From: Perkinsus olseni
Lineage: Eukaryota; Perkinsozoa; Perkinsida; Perkinsidae
Length of the DNA: 64,000 nt
Assembly (NCBI GenBank): GCA_013115135.1
Contig: JABANP010000160.1
Span: 39,571 to 103,570, forward strand
Direction: 5' to 3'
Within the stretch, counting starts at the first letter, position 1. Each line of letters opens with the position of its first letter. The notes under the pieces are model-generated. The model saw only the letters and a list, made by a program, of their open reading frames with translations. It did not search any database and was not told where the DNA came from. A program made the translations under genes and the position numbers. Shown here piece by piece: positions 18,483 to 23,140 of the stretch.

Positions 18483-21400
18483 CTCCATACTCCTGTACTG
18501 GGATCTAGGAATCCACCCAGTAGGGCGTTAAGCATGAAGGAATTCCCCTATCGAAAAGGTCAACTTTCACACAGAACCCCCGCACGTCACTCAGCGAATA
18601 ACGATTCCGGAGGACGTGTGGACGACGAGATCTTCTCGACACAGTATATTCTAACCCTTAGCAGCGAAGTGACATGACTAACGCCCCTGATCCACGGGAT
18701 TAGCTAAGAGAGAGTTGAGGATACTCCCAGAGGAGGCTAACGACATCAGCAATACAATCATCAAAGCCCCTCATTGCGGTGTCTTTGTGACTGTAGTCCG
18801 CGTCGACGATCACAGTACACCAGCAGAGCCGAAAGGGAATTAATGAGCAGGTATGTGAAGCCAACATGCATGCTTATCCGTTATCATTACTGGTAGTAAT
18901 CCGCACTCGTTGGCTCCGATCCAGCCCAATCTCGATGGCACCATCAAAACAGGCTACGGGAAGGCTGCGGGTATTCCGAGGTATCACAATCTGAACACCA
19001 ACAACAAGAAGCATGAAGCATTGCAATACCGCAGCAGACCAGGTGGTGGAGCAAAAGTTTCGACAAGAAAACCAAAACCTCCCAGCGGTCTGCGACAATT
19101 CCGAGCTTCAATTCTAATCAGCAGCCACAAAGGCCAATGACCCTACACGAGGTGGGAGCTGAGCTCAGTTGCTATGCGATGAAGGTTATCGGACTCACTT
19201 CTATAGAGGCGCTAGCTGGCAGCACTAACGGTCGCTGGTTGAGTCCGTGGGGGGCTATTGGAGTTACCATGATACATGGGACATTCGGTGCTACCTGACG
19301 TGAGGAGGAAGGATCAGAAGGTCGTCATCATCACGACTAATACAATGAGGAAACACCGCAAGATACTCAATTGACTCGAAGATCCGGGGCCCAGGAAGGC
19401 CAATAGGCTGCCACCACCATGAGCAGCAGCAGCAAGGGTAATACTTACCAGAGAGCCTCCAGCTGCCATGCTATATGCACTAGACCCACTAGGGGTGCAG
19501 ATAATCAGCCCATCCCCTTGGAACTGAGTCACGTACTTACCATCAACGATAAAGTCGAACCGTTGAAGGGCAGCCTTAGCACCTCTGATAAGAGAAGGCC
19601 TCAATGATAGATCGATCGTCAGGGCGCGCGCTTCTTACCTCGCAATGACGCACTCATTGAGAACATGTTGTTGCAGTATAACTTCCTCCTCCACCCCGTC
19701 AGAGCCTCCTGCTGCGTCTGATGCATCCAATGGTGAGTCGTCTGAACTCTTCCGTACTTTACTCAGTACTTCACATCTCAACCTCGAACGCATTGTGCAG
19801 AATACCTGAATACAACAGCAACAGCAGCAGCAGCCTTGATAGCTGTCATCAGCGAGCCAGAACGACACAACACGTTATACCAAGGTGAATCCTAGACAAG
19901 CCTCTACTAGGAGAAAATTGAGTCAGACGTTCCCTGCACAGCGCAAGGCCGGTAGAGGGGACTTTGTCTGCACTTCCCAACCTACCTTGGACTTTTCCTC
20001 ATCATTTGCCTTGAGTACGTCCTCCACTGGGGCATCGAATACCTTGTTGAGCAGTTCTCGATACCTACACCACAAGGTGGCCCCCACGGATTCATCATAC
20101 ACTTCTGTCAGTATAACAAGGTGACCACAGTGAATCGTCGGTGAGCTTACTTCTCGAATGAATGGGGCGTTAAGAAGCCCAGACTTCCGAGGGCAAACGC
20201 CACCACAGGAGGAGGCATCAACGACACTATGTTCCCACGACGATACAAGTTGTCAGCTGAGATAAAGACACAGACTTGCAATCTTGGTACATCTTGGACT
20301 TTTCTCAACGTGCCGCCGCGGGATTATGAGGAGCTCTGTGCCGCTATGAGAGTACGAAGTAGGGTAATTGTTAATCCCTCTGACGATGATGGATCCTCGA
20401 ATATCCGACAGAAGAGAGATACCGAGGCGTTAGAAAATCTCTCATTCCTGGACGCACCCTATCGAGAGTTGCACTCCCGAGCTTCAAAAATTGATATCAA
20501 TTTAAAGTGAAGAGGAGACCAACTCGGAGAAGCCTGTGATCGTGTTCGCCATCCAATCACTCACTTTCGAGCCACATAATCGTTCTCAAGACGGTGCCGT
20601 CACCACCGAGGCAGATGACCAAGTCCACCATCACGGGGTCGCACTCATATGTATCAGGATCCGCTAGACTAACCTCCTTACCATCTCCCATTACCATACG
20701 AACACCCTGCGTTGAGGAAATGTAAGATTCCAAGATTGCCGCCATCGATCGATGACCAGGTGAGTAGGGTAACCTACTTCCCCACCATCCCCTTCGACGC
20801 ATCTTTTCTTGCACCCCAAACATCCAAACCTCGACAACGGACCTCGATCACGCTGTGCTGCAACTGAAAATATACCACTTGTGCAGCGTCATTCTCTTAC
20901 GCTGAAATGCACGTTTTAACCATAATGCTCGGAAATAATACCGCAGCTGGGGTTCGAACCAGGGACCTCCCTCTACTACCATCAGGATCGTTAGGATCCA
21001 GTAGGACTGTTAATCCCCTTTCGTCTCTGACCCAACTAGCCACCTCCACCAAAGCTTCCGTTGCCTCATCATCTCCCCATTTTTTAGTTACCAATACTGT
21101 CCGTGGAGCGGAGCTCCTAAAAACGGAAAACCATTAAACGACTTTGAGACTCAAACTGAGTCTACCGAGCATGAGACCCTCTTATTACGCGAATAATCGA
21201 TTACACGGGCGCGCGCTACTATCAAACAAATCAGTATAAACGGTAGGAATTACAAGTTATAATTCGTAATCAGATTTTCTGCCGAAGAACCTCAAAAGAA
21301 TCGGCGTAAGATATCTCCGCACGCACCGGCAAAAAATTCAAGATATTCGGTGATTCCTCTCTACTACTACCAGGCCAATTTAATGCTCCTTCCATCCCTC

Positions 21401-23140
21401 ACTGGATGACTTCGAGGAAGTTGTGGTTCGTCTGTCGGGGTATGAGGACTGTTCAAATTACTCTGGGATCGAGCCAACCACGCAATCCCCAATATGAACT
21501 CCTCAATGTCGATCGTGCCCGATCTGAAGGCTAAAGATACTTCAAATCGATCACGTGATCGATTCACTAACCTGTCTATATCGAATGCCTGGAAAGCGCT
21601 CATATACGTCACTCGAGCTAGTGGGATATTCGAGTGCTTTTCTGAAACACAAGAGCATCCGAACACCCCTCCTCCACGTAGACTCACCTCCGTACTGATC
21701 ATAATTGAGGAAAAAATTGACCAGCGCATAGCCGTTCTCAAAATCGATCGGATCCAAATGCTTTTTACCGCGCGCCAAAGAATGGAATATAGTCGCTAAT
21801 CGATATAGCGTCTCGTAATTGAAACCAGTACCTAGAGATATATGAACAACAAGTCAACGTTGAGGAATTGCAAGATAGCAAGATAAGCATCACTCACGTT
21901 TCTGTAACGACGAGACCACCTTAGCCTTGTCCAACCACTCTTGCAGGGCCTGGCAAAAACACGAGAAGTCCGCAACCAACTGACCCAGTCCCAACCCGGG
22001 CTTCAAAACAGCCACGCGAGAGCGCTACTGCCACAACCAAAGCTCCCTTCACAACCAACCATTCGGACAACAACAGCAACACCGATAGATGATGGTGTAC
22101 TGTGCAACGACAGGCCTTCCCAAAATACCAAGTACTCTACACGCATGTTGATTCTGATACTATGAATTACTATCTTATTGTTCTTGCCGCCTTATTATTT
22201 CCCTTTTGTAAGATCGACGACGACCAATTCCACTTACTGGTTTGAGCTCGGGCGATATGATACCATCAGAGGATATTCCTGGAAGATTCGCCTCCTGCGC
22301 AGCATCTCGACAAAAATCGATAACAGACTTCGGCGTCAATGTCCGTGTTAATGCCGGGGTTCCCTGAGAAGAAAGATCAGCAGAAGAAAGGAATCCAAGC
22401 TCGACCCATGCAAGATACAGATATTCGCATCAGCATCGTCCAACTGTCTTCTTTATACGGCAAGGGAACCCTCACCAGAGCCACACACAGTCAAATGATG
22501 GATCGTGAGAAAGTAATTGAGTGATTCCATACATGGGTGTCCTAGGTTCTCATACACGCAAGAGAAAACCAATACTAGCGTAATCGTGGTCTGAGGATGT
22601 TTACTTCACCCTTGCCAATCTCAGGTATGAAAGATATTCATAACGAGCACACAAAACAAGCTGTGCGATTATTACTCGACGCCAGCCCTGCATCCGGCCG
22701 CTCCTATTCGGGCTCGTCTCCTTGCCTCCTTCTACTCGAGGGCTCGAAACCGGACTAGAACCTGACGAATCGATCACGTGATCGATTTGGAAAGTTCCCG
22801 TTTCGTGAGGCTACTCCAGGAGTAACTCCTGGAGTAGCCTGGAGTAGTACTCCTCTTAGAGTACTGCATTAGCGGGTAAACATAGACTTAATTGCACAGA
22901 AACGCTCTTCCCTAGAATCGAACCCGATACCCCTCGCTTACTAGATGCCTGATTGAATGGAATCGGTGTTGGGGCCGATGATGACGAGGACGGTGACTTA
23001 TCATGCGACGGATCAGACATGCAGGTAAACGACTGAGATCGAATCACAGCCCGAGAGTTTAAGATACCGAGGCCTCGGATCGAACCCACGACCTGTCCAT
23101 TAACCGGTACTATACACAAAACCAGTCCAGCGTGTTTCAC
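18371..23140 (-). CDS. EF-hand calcium-sensor / NAD kinase fusion protein, copy A
   Basis: NAD kinase phosphorylates NAD to NADP. N-terminal exons: GTGFNYETLYRLATIFHSLA, DFENGYALVNFFLNYDQY, then a canonical calcium loop DIDRSGTIDIEE followed by EFILGIAWLARSQ (21371-21831). This resembles a neuronal-calcium-sensor-type EF-hand domain with degenerate early hands. The exon ends in LA plus two bases of Trp at 21371. The next exon (20980-21126) starts with the completing base and reads SSAPRTVLVTKKWG, so the two domains join in phase. Then follow DPNDPDG, ICLGGDGTVLRTI (kinase GGDGT), PPPVVAFALGSLGFLTPHSF, NECVIAR, GDGLIICTPSGSSAYSMAAG, VTPIAPHGLNQRPLVLPA, RVRITTS and the terminal LDDWFHSLTSKLHWAKQL, with stop at 18371. 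Exons upstream of 21960 are less certain. A possible first exon starts at 23140 (MKHAGLVLCIVP). Confidence 0.82.
20229..20510 (+). CDS. Antisense open frame nested in a NAD kinase intron
   Basis: The frame lies opposite the gene, between the GGDGT exon and the FALGSLGFLTP exon, in an intron with no counterpart of this size in copy B. The 93 codons include TFLNVPPRDYEELCAAMRVR and an acidic/Ser-rich patch, with coding-like composition. It could be a nested gene exon or an inserted-element fragment. Nothing is recognised. Confidence 0.3.
   Translation: MFPRRYKLSAEIKTQTCNLGTSWTFLNVPPRDYEELCAAMRVRSRVIVNPSDDDGSSNIRQKRDTEALENLSFLDAPYRELHSRASKIDINLK
21524..21571 (-). repeat. 48-base intron inside the EF-hand loop, built around a 20-base palindrome
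   Basis: The intron GTTAGTG...CCTTCAG contains the perfect palindrome AATCGATCACGTGATCGATT (21545-21564), starting 8 bases after the donor. Removing it gives DIDRSGTIDIEE exactly. Copy B has an intron at the same site of about 385 bases. Confidence 0.8.
22768..22839. repeat. 20-base palindrome followed by a perfect 15-base-pair hairpin
   Basis: AATCGATCACGTGATCGATT occurs at 22768-22787, identical to the one at 21545. At 22809-22839, arms GGCTACTCCAGGAGT and ACTCCTGGAGTAGCC flank a single base. Both lie in probable intron sequence in the upstream part of copy A. Confidence 0.75.
22915..23115 (-). repeat. Two tRNA 3-prime-half-like elements, each just after a probable 5-prime splice site
   Basis: On the minus strand one probable intron starts GTTAATGGACAGGTCGTGGG then GTTCGATCC. 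The second starts GTAAGCGAGGGGTATCGGG then TTCGATTC. They flank a small Ser-rich exon (about 22950-23040, MSDPSHDKSPSSSSSAP). The exon-intron model here has no paralog to confirm it. Confidence 0.45.

Follow-up and report, generated by a model that had tools for sequence, protein, structure and literature searches.

In the window, a 64,000-nucleotide stretch of the Perkinsus olseni genome (contig JABANP010000160.1), the minus strand between about 27.3 and 18.4 kb carries the same gene twice in tandem (copies A and B), and the spliced models of both copies point to a chain in which a pair of EF-hands is followed by an NAD kinase (EF-NADK). Perkinsus olseni is a perkinsozoan alveolate that lives as a parasite of marine shellfish. 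We think it probable that these are two tandem genes, each specifying a single chain made of an EF-hand pair with one canonical loop and an NAD kinase, and that calcium would control NADP synthesis through this pair. The single chain, which an earlier note on this stretch had proposed from the letters alone, is supported by the spliced models of A and B, by database proteins joined in the same manner (P0001, P0002 and P0041) and by a profile test on the head of the kinase.

Splice tracing places copy A in a single gene of at least 15 exons, running from 22363 to 18371 on the minus strand (Table 1). The interval 20980..21831 marked in the earlier note lies inside this fusion gene but spans E3 to K1 only. 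The spliced frame covers 555 amino acids before its stop codon, with no internal stop, and all 14 introns are GT-AG and fit in phase. The first exon(s), with the start codon, were not found, and E1, for which no counterpart in copy B was found in the A/B comparison, is the least certain exon. The kinase is complete in exons K1 to K10 (21116 to 18371), with GGDGT, LNEC, DGLI and TPSGSSAYS at residues 282, 406, 437 and 443 of the chain, in line with the full NAD kinase that had been claimed. The near-complete splice scored 96.6 bits against PF20143 (cut-off 23.7) and 39.4 bits against PF01513 (cut-off 25.5), and, judged by Pfam and motifs, this part is a eukaryotic cytosolic-type NAD kinase. No protein kinase family was listed for copy A in a Pfam scan at E up to 1, which sets the chain apart from the calcium-dependent protein kinase (CDPK) type.

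On the minus strand, E5 of copy A ends as AATTGGCCTG/GTAGTAG at 21371 and K1 begins as CGTTTTTAG/GAGCTCCGCT at 21116, where TG and G make up a Trp codon that is followed by SSAPRTVLVTKKWG. Copy B is joined in the same phase (ATTTAGCCTG/GTAGTAGCC at 26193 and TTGTTGTAG/GAGCTC at 25772). The earlier note had thus read the phase and its recurrence in copy B correctly, while its acceptor position of 21126 has to be moved to the boundary 21117/21116.

The EF exon ends in VRDGRxxxLAW, a tail that already belongs to the NAD kinase. From 100 of 115 non-EF homologues we built a hidden Markov model (HMM) for the head of NADK and determined that K1 of copy A scores 46.2 bits alone and 59.3 bits when joined with this tail (+13.1), a score reached by none of 1000 shuffled tails; for copy B the corresponding values were 32.4 and 43.9 bits (+11.5), with 1 of 1000 shuffled tails reaching the joined score. 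A search of the databases for the combined EF-hand and NAD kinase architecture, which the earlier note had called for, returned proteins joined at the same place as copies A and B. P0001, the P. chesapeaki 'nad kinase' of 616 amino acids, holds the EF module and NADK in one annotated chain, and P0041, a JGI protein of 481 amino acids, holds an EF pair and NADK in one predicted chain. P0002, the deposited P. olseni 'NADH kinase pos5, partial', begins inside the EF loop and is 100% identical to copy B of the window over residues 1-53 (E5) and 54-98 (K1), so that the match runs through the join. P0001 and P0002 are the counterparts of copy B and share its join; their database names refer to the kinase only, and neither entry lists an EF-hand domain of Pfam. 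Residues 219-242 of P0001, which lie across the join, were aligned by HMMER to the chain of an NAD kinase with a solved structure (PDB 9cr4), this stretch alone scoring only 0.5 bits. Taken together, these sequence data confirm that the EF-kinase join is a real coding structure.

Exons E3 to E5 of copy A encode two successive EF-hand-like units. A canonical EF loop presents oxygen ligands at positions 1, 3, 5, 9 and 12. The second loop of copy A is canonical (DIDRSGTIDIEE) and is interrupted, between DIDR and SGTIDIEE, by an in-phase intron between E4 (21617-21572) and E5 (21523-21371). The canonical 12-residue pattern is also found in copy B (DRDRSGNIDIVE) and in P0041 (DRNRSGRIYFEE, with Tyr at position 9), and the ligand positions of the second loop are all kept in A, B and P. 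chesapeaki and for the most part in P0041. The EF part of P0041 aligns to that of copy A with 38.9 bits, a score reached by none of 200 shuffles (maximum 23.1), and we therefore take the two modules to be of the same kind; the segment before the canonical hand aligns with P0041 as well, though its loop is non-canonical. The NCS-like module with a canonical loop that had been described previously accordingly stands for the second loop and not for the first. Among PDB sequence matches, centrin, KChIP, hippocalcin, NCS-1 and calcineurin B resemble the module in having EF-hands whose loop leads into a hydrophobic helix (EFILGIAWLARS), although these matches are generic (best E 1.1e-4; best 60 of 118); they are free-standing proteins, whereas the Perkinsus module is a single putative EF pair, of which one loop is canonical, within an enzyme chain.

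Comparison of copies A and B gave nonsynonymous and synonymous proportions (pN and pS) of 0.22 and 0.78 for the EF part (88 codons), with synonymous sites near saturation, 0.24 and 1.0 for the linker (27 codons), and 0.32 and 0.73 for K1-K3 (107 codons, a partly gapped region, in which the donor end of K2/K3 of copy B was used as shifted by two bases to fit P0002). Judged by these proportions, the EF part and the kinase part are both under selection. Conservation of the exons flanking the join, set against join introns that have nothing beyond very short matches in common, is a further line of evidence that the join is more than chance.

Given the canonical loop, direct sensing of calcium by the chain is plausible. 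Calcium entering the second loop would make the N-terminal module pack differently against the kinase, and this altered packing would raise or release NADP synthesis, or it may instead inhibit it. The built-in EF sensor would replace the recruitment of calmodulin, with the EF pair taking the place of the regulatory N-terminal region of NADK and acting as a built-in calcium switch. The N-terminal position of the module supports such a switch, since the region before the first strand is described as regulatory and auto-inhibitory in human NADK (PMC12052686) and the calmodulin-binding sites of sea urchin SpNADK-2 and plant AtNADK2 are placed in the N-terminal extension (PMC6593290).

The spread of the fusion was followed in a homologue search in which scoring was confined to the 8000 candidates with the most shared words; 2067 passed, and the best 120 of these 2067 were inspected. 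Among these 120, the canonical-loop pattern was present in two (P0001 and P0041), while P0002 and the P. marinus protein P0024 hold parts of the loop, P0002 starting and P0024 stopping inside it. Searches with the EF part only brought up P0041 itself alone among 419 candidates and P0001, P0024 and P0002 alone among 920; these searches need shared exact 5-residue words, so that the rarity of EF-NADK is not proven by them. P0024 was dropped as evidence for the join, as its model skips the kinase start; this model looks chimeric, passing from EF exons to C-terminal NADK exons and then to a pseudouridine synthase, with the N-terminal kinase exons missing. P0089 (Phaeothamnion) and P0003 (JGI) have a Perkinsus-like head (IVRSGRHARLFW and IVRVGRDLRLMW, respectively) and chains that start shortly before it, and may be truncated EF-NADKs. 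In a kinase tree of 68 rows, rooted for drawing only, the three Perkinsus rows, P0035 and 34 others form one half (100/97), in which 33 related NADK rows are too short for an EF module (303-397 amino acids listed) and have kept the kinase.

Several observations speak against a calcium-regulated fusion of this kind. The first EF loop is non-canonical, leaving one canonical loop of two, and none of the EF-hand Pfam models reaches its cut-off in copy A, P0001 or P0041, the best being EF-hand_1 on copy A (24.3 bits, E 2e-5, 1.1 bits below the cut-off of 25.4). P0035, a protein from an MMETSP transcript, has a degenerate loop and an EF part without significance (its score is reached by 10 of 200 shuffles), and for this reason it was dropped as a second canonical case. 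The models of P0001 and P0002 may rest on prediction rather than on cDNA, and P0041 falls in the half of the kinase tree opposite to Perkinsus, with long-branch warnings. The kinase frame of copy B is broken in K4 in this assembly, and retention of the join intron would yield an EF-only protein ending at Trp. K4 is intact in the deposited P. olseni (P0002) and P. chesapeaki (P0001) proteins; its break in copy B may be either a sequencing error or real. Descent of the P0041 and Perkinsus fusions from a single event is backed by the EF alignment and not by the kinase tree; the fusion may be old and often lost, or it may have arisen twice.

Part of this evidence bears on an alternative which we consider unlikely, namely that the chain is single but its EF module structural or vestigial, stabilising or tethering the enzyme, so that calcium does not regulate activity. 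Such a role would agree with the non-canonical first loop, with the degenerate loop of P0035 and with the 33 rows of the same half that kept the kinase without room for the module; it agrees poorly with the second-loop ligands, kept in A, B and P. chesapeaki and mostly in P0041, and with the pN of 0.22 found for the EF part at near-saturated synonymous sites.

A further alternative concerns the join itself. Both copies read TGG TAG TAG at this point (21362-21370 and 26184-26192, minus strand), and the region could be read as two adjacent genes, one for an EF-hand protein that terminates at TGG TAG, the other for an independent NAD kinase downstream, with a fortuitous match in phase; in copy B, an open stretch of 69 codons before K1 offers two ATG codons, and one more lies inside K1. 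This seems to us very improbable. GTAGTA is the commonest donor (5 of 26 tabulated, in a table in which the K2 donor of copy B was afterwards shifted two bases, to a GT), and TAG TAG after Trp is therefore no reason for the gene to end there. Neither K1 of copy A nor the six codons back to its upstream stop hold an in-frame ATG, so that a kinase gene of its own is not expected to start at this point. The last residues of the EF exon are moreover NADK head, and P0001, P0002 and P0041 are joined. It is likewise scarcely credible that intron retention serves as a regulated switch between two products of one gene, the EF-NADK chain and a short calcium protein of EF-hands alone that terminates at the conserved stop, as the tandem stops after the donor, although kept in both copies while the join introns (254 nucleotides in A, 420 in B) show chance-level matches only (best 13 nucleotides, E 0.15), may be mere splice consensus with GTAGTA donors so common.

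Returning to the single EF-NADK chain with calcium control, we analyzed the genome (61.5 Mb, 968 contigs) for other NAD kinases. No third one was detected, although a divergent, intron-split one could be missed by the search. The PF20143 profile found four stretches, all of them exons of A and B. PF01513 gave no match at E 0.001, which we attribute to introns splitting the domain, because K3 has GGDGT and the spliced domain reaches the score given above. A vertebrate NADK query (P0115) gave five matches, all to A/B exons, and a metagenomic non-EF NADK query (P0014) gave 12, to A/B exons and to one weak stretch on contig C146. This last stretch was rejected as a third NADK (E 0.013) and ascribed to chance, its best alignment covering 38 residues with 47% identity to P0014 and the preceding DG not being kept; GGDGT was absent from all its alignments to seven queries, no separate motif scan having been made. 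With 150 of 214 candidates scored and a limit of E 0.001, at least 63 stretches with other EF-hand pairs were found, so that separate calcium sensors probably also exist.

With copies A and B as the only NAD kinases detected, most of the NADP supply would go through their enzymes. A more far-reaching proposal, which we put forward tentatively and with less than even confidence, is that EF-NADK would be an old protist class, the only detectable NADK in Perkinsus, in which calcium would gate the whole NADP supply without calmodulin and whose module would have been repeatedly lost or decayed in relatives.

CDPK and NOX5 combine sensor and enzyme in one chain, as EF-NADK does, and differ from it in catalytic fold and substrate. 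Human cytosolic NADK (PDB 8kgc, 3pfn; PMC12052686) shares the catalytic motifs and the C-terminal domain, but its N-terminal extension is described as flexible and auto-inhibitory, with phosphorylation and methylation sites, where Perkinsus has EF-hands instead. SpNADK-2 and plant NADK2 are likewise NAD kinases with an N-terminal calcium-control region; in these, however, the sensor is a separate calmodulin on a short site, whereas the EF-hands of Perkinsus lie in the same chain, and a 2019 review states that little is known of how calmodulin activates NAD kinase (PMC6593290). Bacterial calmodulin-like proteins, that of M. tuberculosis with one EF-hand, are reported to activate NAD kinase and so also couple a small EF-hand sensor to this enzyme, but they are separate from it and not fused as in Perkinsus (PMC9132961). 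In a literature from which most subscription journals and preprints were absent, no description of an EF-hand NAD kinase was evident by title or abstract among the matches listed. 'NAD kinase' and 'Perkinsus' co-occurred in PMC9608856 only, where they are mentioned separately; the main text of PMC6675116, which surveys how NADK evolved in eukaryotes, is without calcium, calmodulin, fusion or Perkinsus, and passages of PMC5890153 mention the EF-hand for NADPH oxidase only. What appears to be new is the layout, a known enzyme and a putative regulatory module in one chain; the proteins themselves are already public under kinase names.

Table 1. Exons and join intron of the two tandem EF-NADK genes (window coordinates).
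Feature	Position	Strand	Content and basis
Copy A E1	22238..22363	minus	N-terminal part, least certain; GT-AG, open, in phase with E2
Copy A E2	21898..21949	minus	Leads into EF-hand 1; GT-AG, in phase; LQKRTGFN end like copy B
Copy A E3	21688..21831	minus	EF-hand 1, non-canonical loop; tblastn with P0001, A/B alignment
Copy A E4	21572..21617	minus	EF-hand 2, first half (SAFQAFDIDR); GT-AG, in phase
Copy A E5	21371..21523	minus	Second half of EF-hand 2 loop (SGTIDIEE), linker and NADK head VRDGRSIKLAW; Pfam EF-hand_1, NADK-head HMM gain
Copy A join intron	21117..21370	minus	254 nucleotides, phase 2, donor GTAGTAG
Copy A K1	20980..21116	minus	NAD kinase fold begins (SSAPRTVLVTKKWG); no in-frame ATG
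Copy A K2	20778..20863	minus	Splice model
Copy A K3	20565..20706	minus	GGDGT motif
Copy A K4	20151..20256	minus	Splice model
Copy A K5	19986..20064	minus	Splice model
Copy A K6	19639..19805	minus	LNEC motif
Copy A K7	19449..19584	minus	DGLI and TPSGSSAYS motifs; NAD_kinase_C
Copy A K8	19199..19294	minus	Splice model
Copy A K9	18891..18990	minus	tblastn and splice model
Copy A K10	18371..18468	minus	Last exon, holds stop codon
Copy B exon before EF-hand 1	27223..27291	minus	tblastn with P0001, GT-AG; N-terminal exon may sit near 27613-27530
Copy B E3	27028..27171	minus	EF-hand 1; tblastn, splice sites
Copy B E4	26735..26828	minus	EF-hand 2, first half (AFTAFDRDR); tblastn, splice sites
Copy B E5	26193..26348	minus	SGNIDIVE loop half, linker, NADK head VRDGRNINLAW; identical to P0002
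Copy B K1	25636..25772	minus	Identical to P0002, which runs on from E5 gap-free
Copy B K2/K3	25094..25330	minus	GGDGT; 78 of 79 residues as in P0002
Copy B K4	24546..24712	minus	Frame changes inside exon in present assembly; tblastn with P0002
Copy B K5-K10	24480-24387, 24326-24217, 24085-23950, 23755-23660, 23606-23507, about 23338-23231	minus	tblastn with P0001 and P0002; splice sites K5-K9

K10, the final NADK exon in copy A, is duplicated (16161-16286 against 18358-18483, 98.4% over 126 bp), and beside this extra K10 lies a diverged duplicate (14433-15092 against 17368-18012, 69% over 676 bp) that, by eye, encodes a small, possibly secreted protein. As judged from these alignments, the K10 copy and the diverged duplicate are remnants of a local segmental duplication. 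Elsewhere in the window, large repeats are 99.5% identical (54571-56820 against 60377-62631 and 57183-58191 against 62994-64000) and include an inverted 374-bp piece (56815-57187 against 62998-62626); they would stem either from duplication in the very recent past or from an artefact of assembly. A histone H4-like gene, recognised by eye at 15741-16078 (plus strand), has copies at 55892-56229 and 61701-62038 (98.8-99.1%).

Plants and animals couple calcium signals to NADP(H) supply via calmodulin, and the Perkinsus chain would show direct fusion as another solution to this coupling. A single chain with both parts would make the coupling of calcium to NADP testable on one purified protein. If the proposed reading is true, the redox-coenzyme pool of Perkinsus, in whose genome no other NAD kinase was detected, would be under direct calcium control.

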